Shown: positions 905 to 13,354 of the stretch, in pieces
Layout of the letters: each line of letters begins with the position of its first letter
Position numbering within the stretch: position 1 is the stretch's first letter
Assembly: GCA_017527155.1 (NCBI GenBank)
Contig: JAFXQI010000012.1
Span: 1-64,000 of the forward strand
DNA length: 64,000 bases
Direction of reading: 5' to 3'
Source of the DNA: Kiritimatiellia bacterium
GTDB lineage: Bacteria; Verrucomicrobiota; Kiritimatiellia; CAIQIC01; Lenti-01
The notes under the pieces: model-generated
Told to the model about the DNA's origin: nothing
What the model saw: only the letters and a program-made list of their open reading frames with translations
The model's database searches: none
Program-made: the position numbers and the translations under genes

Positions 905-1207
905 TTACTTCCGGCCCTTCGGGGCTTCGGGAGCGCGGCCCAGCGGCAGCACGGCGTCGACGTTGGCGTGCGGACGCGCGATGACGTGGACGGAGACGAC
1001 TTCGCCGACGCGGCCGGCGGCGATCTGCCCGGCGTCGCAGGCGGCCTTGACGGCGGCGACGTCGCCGCGGACGATGACGGTGGTGAAACCGCCGCCGGTC
1101 TTTTCGTAGGTGACGAGTTCGACCTTGGCGGCCTTGACCATCGCATCGGCGGCCTCGACGGTCGCGGGGAAGGAACGGGTTTCGATCATTCCGAGTGCAT
1201 CTGCCAT
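905..1207 (-). CDS. BMC shell hexamer protein (BMC-H, PduA/EutM type)
   Basis: This 100-residue single BMC domain forms the hexameric facet tiles of a bacterial microcompartment. Typical features are the start [23 protein letters not shown], the 'KAAKVELV' helix-strand junction at residues 25-32, the '[18 protein letters not shown]' segment near residues 42-60 and a short C-terminal tail. AGAGG lies 7 nt before the ATG. It sits between the fusion enzyme and the vertex protein. Only one BMC-H and one BMC-P are present here, the minimum set for a closed shell, so other shell genes may lie elsewhere or the locus may be a satellite. Confidence 0.94.
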
Positions 1208-1248: not shown

Positions 1249-2535
1249 TCAGCGTCCGCCGCAGGCGGCGAGGGCTTCTTCCATCATCTTGACGGAGGAG
1301 GAGGCGCCGATGCGGGTGGCGCCGTTGCGGATCATGAGCATGGCGTCGGCGTAGGTGCGGACGCCGCCGGAGGCCTTGACGCCGAGCTTGGGGGCGACGG
1401 TGCGGGCCATGAGGGCGACGTCCTCGGCCTTGGCCCCGCCCTTGTTGAAGCCGGTGGAGGTCTTGACGTAGTCGGCGCGGGCCTTCATGGATGCGAGGCA
1501 GGCCTTGACGATCTCGTCGGGAGTCAGCAGGCAGGTCTCGAGGATGACCTTGAGCAGGCCGCGGCCGTCCTTGACGGATTCGCAGACGGTGCGGATGTCG
1601 CGCGCGACGCCGTCCCAGTCGCCGGACTTGGCCTTGCCGACGTTGATGACCATGTCGATTTCGCGGGCGCCGTTGCGCATGGCGTTGCGGGCTTCCATGG
1701 CCATCATCTGCGCGGACATGGCGCCGAGCGGGAACCCGACGACGGCGCAGACCTTGACGGAGGAGCCGCGGAGGGCCTGGGCGGCGACGGGGACCATGGC
1801 GGAGTTCACGCAGCAGCTCCAGAAGTTGTACTGGATGGCTTCGGCGCAGAGTTTCTTCACGTCGTCGGCCGTGGCCTCGGGCTTGAGGAGGGTGTGGTCG
1901 ATCATGCGCGCGAGCTGCTGGGCGGAAAGGTTGCCGGTGGCGGCCGCGACCTGGGCGCCGCCGACGGCGCAACCGCCGCCGACGATCTGCTTCACTCGCT
2001 CGGCGATCCGGGCGATGTCCTGGGGGCTGAGGTCCAATTTCATCTCCTTCATTGCGGCCATGACGGGCGAAGCCGCGCGTCCGGTCTCGAGGTCCTTGAT
2101 CATCCGGACGCGCCGCAGGTGCCTCTCTTCGGTGCAGTCCGTGGCCAGGAAGGTCTGGATGATGCCTTTGGCCTGTTCGAAAGGGGTCTGTCCGGAGCCG
2201 AGGGTGAGGAGGTTGGCTCCGTTGTGCTGGCGGGAATTGCGGGCGAGGGCCTCGTTGTAGCAGGCGGCGGCGCGGACGCCGGGGATCTTGTTGGCGGTCA
2301 TCGCGGAACCGATGCCGGCGCCGTCGACCATGATGCCGACGTCGGCGCGGCCGGCGGCGACGGTACGGGCGACCTTGGCGGCGAAGACGGGGTAATCGAC
2401 GGAGGGGGTCTTGGCGGCGGTGCCGACGTCGATGACGGCATGGCCGAGCGACTTGAGCCAGGAGGCGATCTGCTCCTTGAGCTCGAAGCCGCCGTGGTCG
2501 GCGCCGACGACGATTCTGCACGTTCCCGTTGACAT
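1249..2535 (-). CDS. RpiB-like isomerase fused to deoxyribose-phosphate aldolase (DeoC), BMC-targeted
   Basis: This 428-residue two-domain enzyme probably works inside the microcompartment. Residues 6-150 are an RpiB/LacAB-type sugar-phosphate isomerase (GADHGG at 11-16, RQHN at 102-105). Residues 207-425 are a class I DeoC aldolase, which splits deoxyribose-5-phosphate to acetaldehyde and glyceraldehyde-3-phosphate; both lysines are intact (Schiff-base K358 in VKTSTG, K387 in VKASGG). Between them, residues 168-187 form an amphipathic helix followed by Gly-rich sequence, like BMC encapsulation peptides. In RpiB the catalytic cysteine normally occupies I-C-G-T-G-I-G; here it is Asp71 (V-D-G-A-G-I-G). 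The start at 2535 is chosen because GGAGGAAA lies upstream and the RpiB fold begins at once; longer in-frame starts add an unrelated extension. RpiB plus DeoC define the known 'sugar phosphate utilizing' BMC type. Confidence 0.9.
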   Translation of the reverse strand: MSTGTCRIVVGADHGGFELKEQIASWLKSLGHAVIDVGTAAKTPSVDYPVFAAKVARTVAAGRADVGIMVDGAGIGSAMTANKIPGVRAAACYNEALARNSRQHNGANLLTLGSGQTPFEQAKGIIQTFLATDCTEERHLRRVRMIKDLETGRAASPVMAAMKEMKLDLSPQDIARIAERVKQIVGGGCAVGGAQVAAATGNLSAQQLARMIDHTLLKPEATADDVKKLCAEAIQYNFWSCCVNSAMVPVAAQALRGSSVKVCAVVGFPLGAMSAQMMAMEARNAMRNGAREIDMVINVGKAKSGDWDGVARDIRTVCESVKDGRGLLKVILETCLLTPDEIVKACLASMKARADYVKTSTGFNKGGAKAEDVALMARTVAPKLGVKASGGVRTYADAMLMIRNGATRIGASSSVKMMEEALAACGGR

Positions 2536-2742: not shown

Positions 2743-3867
2743 ATGTCGCGTTGGATGTTGACGGTTGTTTGCGCGCTGTCGGTTGCGGCCGTGGCCGGGG
2801 CGCAGGATGACGATTGGGATGATTTGCTGGCCGGACTGGGCGACGATGCCGTCGAAGAAGCGCCGGCGGCGGTGGAAGTGACCGAGACCGCCGTGGTCGA
2901 AGAAGACCCGTTCGCGGACCTCTTCGACGAGGCGGAAGCCGTGCCCGAGGCGGTGGAAGCCGCCGCGGACGGGGCGGCGGATGCCGTGGCCGAAGCGGCC
3001 GAGGCCGTCGAGGCGATTCCGGAGGCCGTCGAAGAGGCCGATCCGTTCGCCGACGCCTGGGTCGATGCGGAACCGGTGGATGTATCCGGCGCGGTGGAAG
3101 AAGCCGCGGAAGAGGTCGCGGAGACGGTCGACGAAATGGCCGGGGCCGTGGAAGCGGGCGGGGAGGATCCGTTCGCGGACCTGTTCGAGGATGCGGGAAC
3201 GGAAGCCGCGGCGGCCGGGGAAGCCGTGGAAGAAACCGCGGATGCCGCGGTCGAAGAGGTCACCGCGGCCGCGGAAGCGGTGGCGGAGGAAGTGGTCGAA
3301 GAGGACCCGTTCGCGGACCTGTTCGCGGAAGAAGACGGGGCCTTCGGGGCCGAACCGGCCGCGGAAGCCGTCGAAGAAGCCGTCGAAGAAGCGGCCGAAG
3401 CGGTGTCCGAGGCCGTCGAGGAAGAGGCCGCGGCCGTCGAAGAGGCGGTTGTGGCGGAAGAAGCCGCAGCCGAAGAGGCGGTCGCCGAGGTGGCGGTCGC
3501 CGAAGAAGAGATGGCGCCGGTGGAAGAAGACGTGGCCGAAGCCGAAGCGTCGTTTGCGACCCCGGAAGAGGGCGAAGCGGCGGCGGACGTCATCCGCGCG
3601 GCGAAGAAGGGCAAGGGCAAAGGCAAGGACCGTGCCATGCGGGACGGCGAGCGGGTCCGTCCGGTGGAACCGATGGGGGCGTCGCAGAAGCAGGACACGT
3701 TCTCGTCGGAAGCCCGCAAGCCGCTCAAGCCGAAGACGGCGGTGCCGGCCTGGGATTCGCCCGTGATGCTGGATGGTTCCGAAGCGGAGCCGGCGGCGAA
3801 GCCCGCGAAGGCGGCCCCGGCCGCGCGCGAGTCGAAGGGCGATTGGAACGAGCCGGTGGTCTGGTAG
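2743..3867 (+). CDS. Secreted acidic repeat protein with DPFADLF motifs
   Basis: The 374-residue product starts with a clear signal peptide (MSRWMLTVVCALSVAAVAGA), so it is exported. The rest is strongly acidic and built from Ala, Glu and Val, with four spaced copies of (E)DPFAD(L/A)(F/W) near residues 55, 106, 148 and 191. The segments between them read like long helices or coiled coil (EEAVEEAAEAV pattern). Near residue 295 there is a short basic patch (KGKGKGK), then a Pro-rich tail ending in GDWNEPVVW. No enzyme domain is visible. It is transcribed divergently from the BMC genes, with its own promoter, ribosome-binding site and terminator. It may be a periplasmic scaffold or adhesin; this is a guess. 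Confidence 0.8.
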   Translation: MSRWMLTVVCALSVAAVAGAQDDDWDDLLAGLGDDAVEEAPAAVEVTETAVVEEDPFADLFDEAEAVPEAVEAAADGAADAVAEAAEAVEAIPEAVEEADPFADAWVDAEPVDVSGAVEEAAEEVAETVDEMAGAVEAGGEDPFADLFEDAGTEAAAAGEAVEETADAAVEEVTAAAEAVAEEVVEEDPFADLFAEEDGAFGAEPAAEAVEEAVEEAAEAVSEAVEEEAAAVEEAVVAEEAAAEEAVAEVAVAEEEMAPVEEDVAEAEASFATPEEGEAAADVIRAAKKGKGKGKDRAMRDGERVRPVEPMGASQKQDTFSSEARKPLKPKTAVPAWDSPVMLDGSEAEPAAKPAKAAPAARESKGDWNEPVVW

Positions 3868-8635: not shown

Positions 8636-9017
8636 CAACCGGGAAGGGGAGGGGGGACACGAGAGACGAGTGACGAGATGCGGCGGGCCCGCGCCGCGGG
8701 CCGTCGCCGGCCCCGGGGAGTGGGTCCTGGCAGGGACCGTGGGATTGGGGGAACCTCCCGTGGTTTGGGCCATGCGCGCGGGGCGGGAAATTGTCCCGGT
8801 CGGGGAAATGAAATTTTCCAAGCGTTGAAAACTGTTCCGTGGAGGCAGTCCCCATCCGGCCCGTCCGGAATCCTTTTTGAGATTACGGGAAACATTGGAT
8901 TTTCCGTCGGTTCTGCCATGCTCCGACGCCATGAAAGACACGGGGCGTTTTTCCTTGCGGAGTCCGGGGCCTTGCGGCATTCTGCATTGCAAGAGAAACG
9001 TATTGGAGGCCACCGCC
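8636..9017. other. Intergenic region with degenerate palindrome and one ATG-ended module
   Basis: No gene is seen in these 382 bp. A decayed copy of the TTTTCCAA...TTGAAAA palindrome lies at 8814-8831 and an ATG-ended module at 8873-8935. The last 35 bp (CAAGAGAAACGTATTGGAGG block) form the leader of the following gene and recur before its paralogue at 11582. Confidence 0.6.
8873..8935 (+). repeat. Dispersed ATG-ended module, copy 2
   Basis: GAGATTACGGGAAAC, then TTTTCC, CATGCT and CC-ATG-AA at 8929-8935. It points toward the downstream secreted protein gene, but the ATG is not that gene's likely start. Confidence 0.65.
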
Positions 9018-10847
9018 ATGAAATCCACCATCCGCAATGCCGTATTCGCGATCGCCGCCGCTTTCGCGATGGTCCCGACCGTGCGTGCCGACGGGCCCGC
9101 CGCCTTCGCGCAGGTCGAAATCCGCGGGCTCGATGCCTTGTTCGCCGCCGCCGACCGCATCGCCGCACCCTACGTCCCCGCCGGGCAGGCCAAGGGGATG
9201 TTCATCGGGGCTTGCAGCGCGCGCGCCGTCGATCCGTTCGAGGTCGTCGACGGGGAGGGGACCGTGCGCTGCGTGGTCTACGGCATAGATGATGACTGGG
9301 ATGTGCTGGTCGATTTCCCGGCGGCCGGTGGCGATGCGGCCGGCGCGCTCGGGAAGCTGGCGGAAGCGCTTCCCGCAGCGGATGTGCCGGACGGGATCGT
9401 TCTCCCCGAAGGGGCCCTGTCGTTGCTCACCGGCGGCTTCTCCCTCTCCGGCACGCTCTGCATCCCCCGCGGGGAGCGCATCGCGCTGGTGCCCCATTCC
9501 GCGTTCGCGCACGATGTCCGCGACGTGGACGGAGCCCTCGCCCTGCTCGATGCCGCGCCGGACGTGCCCGCCGGTGGCGTGCTGGCCGCGGCCGTCGATT
9601 TCGGGGCCGTGCTGCCGCTCCTCGCCAAGTGCAGGGCGGGGACGAGCGGCGCGCAGTTGCGCGAGCGGCTGTCGGATTCCTCGTTCCCCGTCCGCGCCCT
9701 CGCCCTCGGGATCGGACTCGACGAGGCCAACCGCTTCCGCACCGATTGGTCGGTCGCGTACGTCCCCGACTCCCCACAGGCGCGCCACGGCTCGGGCATC
9801 GGGGCCCCCGTCTCGCCGCTCGCGAACGCCATCCTCTTCCCCGACGCCGTGGCGGCGGGCACCTACCACGGGGAGTTGTCCGGCATCTCCGACGACGAAC
9901 TCCGCGCTGTCCTGAACGGCAAAAACGGCTTGGCCTCCGTCGCCGGGGAGGACGACCCGCGGACCGCCGCCGTGCGCGACGCACTGGCCGCCGCCTACAT
10001 CCCGTTCCTCCGGATGCTCGGCGACGAGTTCGCCGTTGCCTATCTCCCCGCGGGCGAAGGGGAGGAGGGCGGCGGCTCCGCCCTGCTCTCGTTCCCCGCC
10101 GACCCGCAGGCCGCCCTCGACGGGGTGCCCGACTGCTTCAACGGGATGATTGGCGCGTTCGCCGATGCCCGCCGCTCTGCCGCCGACGATGACGACGATG
10201 TTCCCGACGTGGTCGACGCTTTGTCCCGCCTCCGCGTCGAGCCCGCCGGCGAACGGTCGGTGAGGGAGACGTCGGTGCGCCGCTATGTCGTGCGCCTGGA
10301 GGGGGAGGACGAGACGCCGGCGCGCGATTACGGGGCCTTCGAGGCCGCGGCCGCCGGACCCGCGCTGTACCTCGGGACGCTTCCCGACGGCCGCCTCGGC
10401 GACGTCCTCGCCGACCTCGCCGCCGGACATACCGCGAAGGGGCCGGTCGCCGCGATGCCGGCCTTCGCCGCCGCCTACGGGGAAGCGCCCGAAGGGGCCG
10501 CCTGCGGCTATGTGCGCCTGCGGCCGGCGCTCCGCGCGATCCTGCCCAAGCTCCAGGCTTTTGTCGACAACGTGATTGCCGAGGACGAAACCGGCATCGT
10601 CCCCGCCACCGCTGCGGCGCTCGCCGGAGTCGCGACCGCCTTCGCCAACGACCCCGCGCTCCCGGACATCACCCTGGCCTCGACCCAGCGCTGGCTCCCC
10701 GAGGGGGCCCGGCTGGAAAGCGTCGTTTCGATGCCGCTGTCGGATTTCCATGTTGCCATCGACGCCATCAGCAAGGCCGCGATTGCGATCCGTACCGGTG
10801 TCGCCGGGGTCGCCCATTCCGGTCGCCCCGGTTCCGCCGGGCGGTAA
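9018..10847 (+). CDS. Secreted protein of unknown family, tandem paralogue 1
   Basis: The 609-residue product has a signal peptide (MKSTIRNAVFAIAAAFAMVPTVRA) and is otherwise a soluble, Ala/Asp-rich protein with no recognised domain. Residues 25-80 (ADGPAAFAQVEIRGLDALF...) and a C-terminal block (PALYLGTLPDGRLGDVLADL...CGYVRLRPALRAILP) are nearly identical to the tandem neighbour at 11582, while the central part has diverged. The overall look, with a long alternation of short strands and helices and repeated LRVEP/VRRY elements, recalls bacterial periplasmic proteins of PVC bacteria, but no function can be given. The start at 9018 follows GGAGG and the signal peptide; an upstream in-frame ATG belongs to the ATG-ended module. 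Confidence 0.78.
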   Translation: MKSTIRNAVFAIAAAFAMVPTVRADGPAAFAQVEIRGLDALFAAADRIAAPYVPAGQAKGMFIGACSARAVDPFEVVDGEGTVRCVVYGIDDDWDVLVDFPAAGGDAAGALGKLAEALPAADVPDGIVLPEGALSLLTGGFSLSGTLCIPRGERIALVPHSAFAHDVRDVDGALALLDAAPDVPAGGVLAAAVDFGAVLPLLAKCRAGTSGAQLRERLSDSSFPVRALALGIGLDEANRFRTDWSVAYVPDSPQARHGSGIGAPVSPLANAILFPDAVAAGTYHGELSGISDDELRAVLNGKNGLASVAGEDDPRTAAVRDALAAAYIPFLRMLGDEFAVAYLPAGEGEEGGGSALLSFPADPQAALDGVPDCFNGMIGAFADARRSAADDDDDVPDVVDALSRLRVEPAGERSVRETSVRRYVVRLEGEDETPARDYGAFEAAAAGPALYLGTLPDGRLGDVLADLAAGHTAKGPVAAMPAFAAAYGEAPEGAACGYVRLRPALRAILPKLQAFVDNVIAEDETGIVPATAAALAGVATAFANDPALPDITLASTQRWLPEGARLESVVSMPLSDFHVAIDAISKAAIAIRTGVAGVAHSGRPGSAGR

Positions 10848-11480: not shown

Positions 11481-11581
11481 TGGGTTGGAGGGGGCGGGGG
11501 CCGGGGGCGGTTTTTGCTTGCGGGAAGGGGCGGGGGTCGGGCATGCTTTGATGCAAGAGAAACGTATTGGAGGCTTCCGCC

Positions 11582-13354
11582 ATGAAATCCACCATCCGCC
11601 ATGCCGTGCTCGCGATCGCCGCCGCTCTCGCGATGGTCCCGACCGTGCGCGCCGACGGGCCCGCCGCCTTCGCGCAGGTCGAAATCCGCGGGCTCGATGC
11701 CTTGTTCGCCGCCACCGACCGCATCGCCGCTCCCTACGTCCCCGCCGGGCAGGCCAAGGGGATGTTCATCGGGGCTTGCGAGGCCCGTGGCATCAATCCG
11801 TTCGAGGTCGTTGACGGCGGGGAGACCGTTCGCTTCCTGGTTTGCGAGGCGCCGAATTACCTGCTCGACATCCCCGCCGCCGGAGGCGATGCCTCCGCAG
11901 TCCTCGAGAAGCTGGCCGGAGCACTGGGTGCCGTCGACACCCCCAAAGGCGTCGACATGCCGGAAGGGGCGCATTTCCTCCGTACGGGCCTTCCCGCGAA
12001 CGCCCGGAGCCTCTTCATTCCCCGCGGAGGACGTCTCGTAGCCATCGACTACACCAAACCCAACCCGATCCCCCCGGCGCAGGCCCTCGCGCTACTCGAC
12101 GCCACCCCCGACGTGCCCGCCGAAGGCGTGCTGGCCAGTACCATCGATTTCGAGGCGCTGAAAACGGTCTGGACCCCAGCTCCGGAGGATTCTTCCGCCA
12201 CAGGGTTCCGGGAGATCCTGGCGGACCCCGATTTCCCCTTCCGTGCCGTCGCGTTCGGACTTGGACTCGACGGGGCCGACCGCTTCCGCGCCGATTTCTC
12301 CGCCGCGTACATTCCCGACGTACCCCAGGCACGCATCGTTTCGGGCATCGGGGCCCCCGTCTCGCCGCTCGCGAACGCCATCCTCTTCCCCGACGCCGTG
12401 GCGGCGGCCACCTGCCGCCAGGAACTGTCCGTCCTCTCCGACGATGAACTCCGCTCCTTCCTGTCCGGCGACACCGGGGACGACGACCCGCGGATCGCCG
12501 CCGCGGACGTTGCCCTGACCGCCGCCTGCCTCCCGCTCCTCCGGCTGCTTGGCGACGAATACGCCATTGCCCTCCTCCCTGCGGACGACGGGGAGGAAGC
12601 CGGCAGCGCCGCCCTCCTCGCGTTCCCAGCCGACCCGCAGACCGCCCTCGACGGGGTGCCCGCCATCCTCGAGGGGGGGATATCCGCGTTCGCCGGGGCC
12701 TTCGCGGCCATCGCCGAAGAGGATGGCGACGACGTTCCCGACGTGGCCGTGGCCGCCTCCCGGATCCGCATCGAGCCCGTCGGCGAACGGACTGTGCAGG
12801 GGACGCCCGTGCGCCGCTACACTTTCCGCCTGGAGGGAGAAGGCAACGATTCCGCGCGCGATCTCGGCTTCTTCGAGGCCGCGGCCGCCGGACCTGCGCT
12901 GTACCTCGGGACGCTCCCCGACGGCCGCCTCGGCGACGTGCTCGCCGACCTCGCCGCCGGGCATACCGCGAAGGGCCCGGTCGCCGCCATGCCGTCCTTC
13001 GCCGCCGCCTACGGGGAAGCGCCCGAAGGGGCCGCCTGCGGCTACGTGCGCCTGCGGCCGGCGCTCCGCGCGATTCTGCCGGCGCTGCGCAACCTGATGC
13101 GGGCCATGGGCGCGGACGAGATCGAACTCAAGGACCTCGTCAACCCCGTGTCGTTTGCGCTCTCCCTGGATGGACATCCCTACCTCCCGGACGTCACCCT
13201 GGCCTCCACCCAGCGCTGGCTCCCCGACGGCAACCGCCTGGAAAGCATCGTCTCGATGCCGCTGGCGGACCTCCATGCCGCCATCGACGCCGTTGTCACT
13301 TGCCATCGCCGCGCCTGCGAAATCATCGGCGCACATGGCGCCGCCGGGCGGTAA
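11582..13354 (+). CDS. Secreted protein of unknown family, tandem paralogue 2
   Basis: The 590-residue product is the tandem duplicate of the protein encoded at 9018. It shares an almost identical signal peptide and first 80 residues, the 'SGIGAPVSPLANAILFPDAVAA' stretch in the middle and a long identical block near the C-terminus (residues about 435-500). Segments between these blocks differ strongly, including in length, so the pair is mosaic rather than uniformly diverged. No domain was recognised. The leader with GGAGG is also duplicated, so the start at 11582 corresponds to 9018. It is probably exported to the periplasm; role unknown. Confidence 0.78.
   Translation: MKSTIRHAVLAIAAALAMVPTVRADGPAAFAQVEIRGLDALFAATDRIAAPYVPAGQAKGMFIGACEARGINPFEVVDGGETVRFLVCEAPNYLLDIPAAGGDASAVLEKLAGALGAVDTPKGVDMPEGAHFLRTGLPANARSLFIPRGGRLVAIDYTKPNPIPPAQALALLDATPDVPAEGVLASTIDFEALKTVWTPAPEDSSATGFREILADPDFPFRAVAFGLGLDGADRFRADFSAAYIPDVPQARIVSGIGAPVSPLANAILFPDAVAAATCRQELSVLSDDELRSFLSGDTGDDDPRIAAADVALTAACLPLLRLLGDEYAIALLPADDGEEAGSAALLAFPADPQTALDGVPAILEGGISAFAGAFAAIAEEDGDDVPDVAVAASRIRIEPVGERTVQGTPVRRYTFRLEGEGNDSARDLGFFEAAAAGPALYLGTLPDGRLGDVLADLAAGHTAKGPVAAMPSFAAAYGEAPEGAACGYVRLRPALRAILPALRNLMRAMGADEIELKDLVNPVSFALSLDGHPYLPDVTLASTQRWLPDGNRLESIVSMPLADLHAAIDAVVTCHRRACEIIGAHGAAGR

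Follow-up and report, generated by a model that had tools for sequence, protein, structure and literature searches.

The window (the whole stretch of DNA that was analysed, 64,000 nucleotides) carries a gene that fuses RpiB to the deoxyribose-phosphate aldolase DeoC, and its product is probably a bifunctional enzyme that works inside a bacterial microcompartment on pentose phosphates derived from nucleosides, its isomerase half being active and of an Asp type. This reading draws on the domains, the residues, the gene context, a clade-wide signature, a match to an encapsulation-peptide (EP) profile and a coupled loss in relatives, all of which were observed here. The RpiB-DeoC fusion itself is not new: an aldolase-isomerase fusion in sugar phosphate utilization (SPU) loci of Marinimicrobia is already in print (Axen 2014, PMC4207490; this and the other papers are cited from excerpts of their text). 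What we could not find described in the literature searched is an internal EP, and an Asp-Ala-Ser class of RpiB that follows the shell.

The fusion gene and its microcompartment locus

The features of the locus are as follows.

1249..2535, minus strand: RpiB-DeoC fusion gene, 428 aa, ATG at 2535, stop at 1251-1249; homologues share the start Met
2098..2514, minus strand: RpiB domain (LacAB_rpiB, PF02502), residues 8-146, by Pfam and by sequence match to solved RpiBs
2323..2325, minus strand: codon of Asp71, the residue that replaces the catalytic Cys of classical RpiB; Ala73 and Ser77 stand close by
1975..2034, minus strand: EP-like amphipathic helix, residues 168-187, inter-domain; AlphaFold2 helix, match to an AldDH-derived EP profile
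1282..1917, minus strand: DeoC domain, residues 207-418, by TIGR00126 and solved DERAs
1462..1464, minus strand: Lys358 (VKTSTGF), kept in 21/21 aligned fusions
1375..1377, minus strand: Lys387 (VKASGG), kept in 21/21 aligned fusions
905..1207, minus strand: BMC-H shell protein, 100 aa, PF00936 at 101.8 bits
506..796, minus strand: BMC-P (EutN/CcmL) shell protein, 96 aa, PF03319 at 104.1 bits

The first-pass annotation had placed RpiB and DeoC in one 428-residue chain with both DeoC lysines intact, and the reading frame, Pfam and NCBIfam bear this out, the lysines being invariant among the aligned fusions. We take Lys358 to be the Schiff-base lysine and Lys387 the second catalytic lysine, by homology. 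By Pfam, LacAB_rpiB covers residues 8-146 with 157 bits and DeoC residues 211-411 with 46 bits, and the NCBIfam deoC equivalog TIGR00126 scores 261 bits against a cut-off of 117.3. The RpiB half passes the cut-off of PRK05571 (159 vs 135) and narrowly misses that of the rpiB equivalog TIGR01120 (137.0 vs 138.65), which counts against our preferred reading. Among the matches listed, a PDB fold search with the fusion model returned DeoC only.

SPU compartments are among the most prevalent types of microcompartment (BMC), and a DeoC-type (pfam01791) and an RpiB-type (pfam02502) enzyme are common to all seven of their subtypes (Sutter 2021, PMC8217296). Both enzymes are present here, and the fusion gene is followed on the same strand, after a 41-base gap, by the BMC-H gene and, after a further 108 bases, by the BMC-P gene. 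The sugar-phosphate BMC proposed at first pass was thus recovered by Pfam as one of SPU type, and by gene content the fusion locus is an ordinary member of that group. A characterised SPU enzyme was not found in the literature searched. Since contig C29 of the source genome (3.2 Mb, 114 contigs) begins at the first base of the window, the window cannot be taken as the whole locus. The gene of the aldehyde dehydrogenase (AldDH) is not beside the fusion. It belongs to a second shell cluster, with one BMC-T and two BMC-P genes, on contig C34; this CoA-acylating AldDH, which bears an N-terminal EP (MRLTDQDIEAIAQRIAGDMRGGG), is contiguous with the fusion in relatives such as L050. Three observations count against the preferred reading: the SPU locus of the source genome is divided between C29 and C34, PduL (PF06130) has no match in that genome, and no CcmP-like shell gene lies beside the fusion. 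PduL is described as common in SPU loci, though not universal, and as absent from those of Marinimicrobia (Axen 2014, PMC4207490). Of the 16 fusion loci fetched from the same phylum, 14 have the CcmP-like gene, the exceptions being L049 (of the source genus) and L063.

Genes that make pentose phosphates accompany the fusion elsewhere. The phosphopentomutase DeoB was found in 24 of 26 genomes (the 25 fusion genomes and G112), in 14 of the 25 on the contig of the fusion and within 6 kb of it; DeoA, uridine phosphorylase and cytidine deaminase are near the fusion in some loci. Neither DeoB nor DeoA was found beside the gene in the window or in L016-L018; in the source genome a phosphopentomutase is encoded on C31 and a pyrimidine-nucleoside phosphorylase on C96.

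Some other genes may be mentioned in passing. The divergent neighbour of the fusion (2743-3867, plus strand) is a 374-aa frame with Ala/Glu/Val repeats and a signal-like start. Two adjacent long frames on the plus strand (8877-10847 and 11567-13354) are near-identical in their N-terminal parts (MKSTIR to ADRIAAPYVPAGQAKGMFIGAC), apparently an exported protein that was duplicated in tandem. In SPU loci of Chloroflexota and Bacteroidota, a 133-aa protein without a Pfam match stands among the shell genes (L103:15145-15543) and is shared by L100, L115 and L120.

Of 387 genomes of the phylum, 25 encode the fusion at full or almost full length, among them the source genome; all 8 genomes of the source family have it. 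For other genomes we rely on 80 named loci, the best of 572 confirmed, retrieved with RpiB-domain patterns made from Asp-type sequences, which biases the sample; 54 of these are Asp-type, 22 of them fused to DeoC, and 26 are Cys-type. Recurrence in 25 of 387 phylum genomes and in 22 of these best 80 of 572 argues that the architecture is not a chance product. Among the phylum genomes and the same best 80, fused forms occur in records named Verrucomicrobiota/Kiritimatiellota, Lentisphaerota, Acidobacteriota and Planctomycetota, as well as Calditrichota, Fibrobacterota, Krumholzibacteriota, Pseudomonadota and Elusimicrobiota. A tree of 97 RpiB rows (16 loci of same-phylum genomes, the best 80 of 572 and the Cys-type RpiB of the source), computed by a quick method from only 143 columns, requires a single change for the fusion (SH-aLRT 97), with or without the columns around residue 71. 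One change despite so many phyla suggests that the fusion arose once and then spread horizontally.

The active site of the RpiB half

The first-pass annotation had noted Asp71 where the catalytic Cys is expected, and alignment with solved RpiBs (e.g. 3ph3/3he8, IVICGTG) confirms this. Across the 97 rows (named loci being the best 80 of 572), the comparison proposed there gave 70 Asp and 27 Cys at this position, the Asp types comprising 38 fused and 32 free RpiBs. Two further positions differ along with it in this same set: residue 73 is Ala in 62 and Val in 5 of the 70 Asp types, with others in the rest, and Thr (25) or Ser (2) in the 27 Cys types, while residue 77 is Ser in 70/70 Asp types, all of which also have Gly74, and Ile (12), Met (10), Val (3), Gln (1) or, in L134, Ala in the Cys types. 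The remaining pocket residues (Asp13, His14, Tyr48, His104, Asn105, Arg138 and Arg142) are invariant in 21/21 aligned fusions. With the best 80 of 572 as named loci, the signature is invariant over more than ten phyla, fused and free. Judged from this alignment, the Asp71 of the fusion is the shared mark of an organelle-linked family and not a defect of a single gene. The Asp types as one clade were not upheld by the tree: one change suffices with all columns, two are needed once the columns around residue 71 are omitted.

In classical RpiBs the Cys acts as the C2 base and a Thr is held to shuttle a proton between O1 and O2; in the mycobacterial enzymes Glu75 serves as the base in place of Cys (PMC3755991, PMC4783025). 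The fusion has neither the Cys nor this Glu, having Asp71 and Ser77 instead, so that the Asp type is, by sequence, distinct from both described catalytic solutions. No description of an Asp-type RpiB was found in the open-access literature, including the excerpts of PMC3212906, PMC3755991 and PMC4783025. The possibility, raised at first pass, that Asp marks a normal active variant gains from these data: Asp is the norm in this group (70/70, with the best 80 of 572 as named loci) and the other catalytic positions are kept, so activity is predicted.

The Asp type goes with shell genes. Among the best 80 of 572 loci, the fetched stretch contains shell genes for 38 of 54 of the Asp type and 0 of 26 of the Cys type (p 2e-10, by profiles grown from the shell proteins of the source genome); for whole genomes, searched with Pfam, the counts are 52/54 and 5/26 (Fisher p 1.4e-12), both p-values treating as independent loci that are in part related. 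The Asp-type exceptions in this sample of the best 80 are L092 and L113; the Cys-type loci whose genomes have shell genes are L126, L137, L143, L144 and L146, none with shell genes around the RpiB stretch.

A second RpiB is encoded in 23 of the 25 fusion genomes. Of 26 such further RpiBs (that of G112 included), 24 are Cys-type and run into serine hydroxymethyltransferase (SHMT), as judged by eye, and two are Glu-type. With a Cys-type RpiB-SHMT copy in 22 of the 25 fusion genomes, housekeeping need not depend on the RpiB of the BMC. The copy of the source genome (L014 / L017:2767-4506, contig C27, minus strand) is Cys-type and shares one frame with serine hydroxymethyltransferase, as confirmed by Pfam. 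The two Glu-type RpiBs with the motif GGSGNGE, L180 (G312) and L200 (G118), stand alone in genomes that have an Asp-type fusion; since G312 has a Cys-type RpiB as well, all three active-site types meet in one genome. We take GGSGNGE to be the mycobacterial Glu75 motif.

The first-pass annotation had offered a changed substrate, inactivity or a scaffold role for the isomerase half. The latter two are not favoured in view of the invariant signature, and the first appears doubtful, though far from negligible. It would have the Asp-Ala-Ser half active on another aldose or ketose phosphate of the compartment pathway (a tetrose, hexose or modified pentose phosphate). Residues 71, 73 and 77 switch together, and the Thr lost along with the Cys contacts O1/O2 of the substrate in LacAB, activity falling about 20-fold in LacB T67A (PMC3755991), so that a different reaction could be catalysed; the second RpiB of most fusion genomes fits this too, and the decay or absence of the RpiB half in two shell-less genomes (below) would tie its role to the shell. 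Against it, the fusions retain Arg138/Arg142, which bind phosphate, and His104, which opens the ring, and the neighbouring genes make pentose phosphates.

The helix between the domains

The first-pass annotation had described an EP-like helix at residues 168-187 (DLSPQDIARIAERVKQIVGG), lying between the domains. The AlphaFold2 model of the fusion (mean pLDDT 87.9; a pTM of 0.57 does not fix the domain arrangement) has an isolated helix at 171-186 between low-confidence stretches, with pLDDT below 50 for residues 186-199. The segment resembles the N-terminus of the AldDH of the source genome. An EP profile was built from 35 AldDH N-termini only, 6 of 41 having been dropped for a plainly wrong start codon. 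With the best 80 of 572 as named loci, 36 of 38 fusions match the profile best in the linker between the domains, and the linker scores exceed the 95th percentile of 760 shuffled linkers in 30/38 and their maximum in 16/38. Profile and model together uphold the helix as described. The exceptions are L054, where a short RpiB match outscores the linker (LDLSPEDIAKITARVKDIL), and L063. Scores are low in absolute terms, and in six fusions whose best match is in the linker they lie below zero bits, which counts against our preferred reading.

Like the other EPs of the locus, the segment is a short amphipathic helix on a disordered tether. EPs are called terminal (PMC8217296, PMC12339742, PMC11157265), but this one occupies residues 168-187 of 428; in free DeoCs it is found at the N-terminus. 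For 28 free DeoC frames the best profile match lies ahead of the barrel in 17 and inside it in 6, with none in 5. An EP between two domains was not mentioned in the literature among the matches listed. Many SPU DeoCs have, between the EP and the barrel, a Cys-rich stretch and then a conserved helix ending in GAxR (e.g. CAFCKVCAETNPELVRQFLEMGADRI). The Cys-rich stretch, a possible metal site, was seen in L077:1531-2961 (where it has no Pfam match), L079, L080, L090 and L108 and in the free DeoCs L087, L095, L100 and L103, and is absent from the protein of the window.

Two genomes without shell genes bear on the matter. In G047 (95% complete, no PF00936 match), the fusion belongs to a run that also includes DeoB, DeoA, Cdd and a gene that by eye resembles purine-nucleoside phosphorylase. 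The EP pattern is gone from the linker of this fusion; of the positions that are invariant elsewhere, the RpiB half has changed 6 of 37, including Y48C, P49A and R138L, and DeoC 3 of 66. As 5 of 37 RpiB positions have changed in G386, which has shell genes, the count for G047 alone is not extreme, and which residues changed matters more. In G112 a DeoC (67% identical) adjoins DeoB, and no shell gene, RpiB half or EP was found. By sequence, then, the EP and the RpiB half are eroded or gone in the shell-less relatives (n=2) while DeoC persists; these act as natural knock-outs that tie tag and isomerase half to the shell.

The first-pass annotation had named the occurrence of the helix with no BMC nearby as a point against an EP. 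Among the best 80 of 572 loci, 16 of the 54 Asp-type ones indeed have no shell gene in the stretch, and 14 of these 16 genomes have one elsewhere. Of the shell-less genomes of the same class, G047 has a degenerate helix and G112 none, so these do not refute the reading; L113, a MAG without PF00936 whose DeoC yet carries the helix, is an ambiguous exception.

That the segment is a mere linker helix with no targeting role seems quite improbable. The low profile scores of some fusions and the terminal position ascribed to published EPs would fit it, but the segment matches AldDH EPs, stands at the N-terminus of the free SPU DeoCs and has degenerated in G047, a fusion genome without any shell gene.

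Proposed function and comparison with known systems

Under the preferred reading, the fusion would be cargo of an SPU-type BMC that handles pentose phosphates from nucleosides, with acetaldehyde oxidised inside the shell by the CoA-acylating AldDH encoded with the C34 shell genes. Its activity, substrate, shell binding and luminal location are what we infer. The RpiB half would be a working aldose-ketose isomerase whose active site forms a class of its own (Asp71-Ala73-Ser77 for Cys-Thr-hydrophobic); its substrate would most likely be ribose-5-phosphate, and Asp71 would act as the base. Each half would use one of the two phosphopentomutase products, deoxyribose-5-phosphate and ribose-5-phosphate, and they would work in parallel and not in series, because 2-deoxyribose has no C2 hydroxyl and is no substrate for an aldose-ketose isomerase; sequential RpiB-to-DeoC chemistry on deoxyribose was ruled out on this ground. 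The inter-domain helix may be the former N-terminal EP tag of DeoC, from before RpiB joined in front, and would now direct both activities to the shell in a 1:1 ratio.

A bolder version, which we offer tentatively as a possibility, is that Asp71-Ala73-Ser77 constitutes a third catalytic class of RpiB, beside Cys and the mycobacterial Glu, which arose together with microcompartments, has remained bound to them and disappears when the shell is lost. Its substrate would then differ from plain ribose-5-phosphate, or else it would open the deoxyribose-5-phosphate ring for the aldolase to which it is tethered. At the other extreme, an isomerase half without activity, presenting the EP as a scaffold or as a module for oligomerisation, is very improbable: the catalytic Cys is replaced, and C69A and C69S forms of trypanosomatid RpiBs are inactive (PMC4783025), but the signature is invariant in more than ten phyla, fused and free, and is kept by free Asp-type RpiBs unjoined to an EP-DeoC (both with the best 80 of 572 as named loci), the other active-site positions are kept in 21/21 aligned fusions, and a scaffold has no need for Asp13, His14, His104 or Arg138. 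A dead or scaffold RpiB is therefore unlikely by sequence, and was ruled out as the main reading by the clade-wide invariance.

With the Asp-Ala-Ser signature, the RpiB of a compartment can be told from a housekeeping one from nothing more than its sequence, and a definite question arises for chemistry: what takes over from the Cys-Thr pair. The internal EP, if true, would widen the rule that EPs are terminal and offer a model from nature for enclosing two enzymes at a fixed ratio.

Published SPU BMCs (Axen 2014, PMC4207490; Sutter 2021, PMC8217296) combine DeoC, RpiB, BMC-H and BMC-P as here, together with an AldDH, which in the source genome is encoded on C34 and not beside the fusion; in our case, by contrast, the locus lies on two contigs, the EP stands between domains and the RpiB is of the Asp71-Ala73-Ser77 type, the last two features finding no mention in the excerpts of those papers. 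The RpiB half shares with classical Cys-type RpiBs (3he8, 1nn4, 2vvr) the family profile and the pocket of Asp13, His14, Tyr48, His104, Asn105, Arg138 and Arg142, but has Asp for Cys, Ala for the proton-shuttling Thr, and Ser at 77. Mycobacterial-type RpiBs likewise have no Cys and use a carboxylate base; their Glu is at the place of residue 77 (GGSGNGE, as in L180 and L200), whereas the fusion has Asp71 and Ser77. The N-terminal EPs of AldDH and of PduP/PduL are, like the segment described here, amphipathic helices of about 18 residues on a disordered tether; in the fusion, by contrast, the helix is internal, between two catalytic domains.
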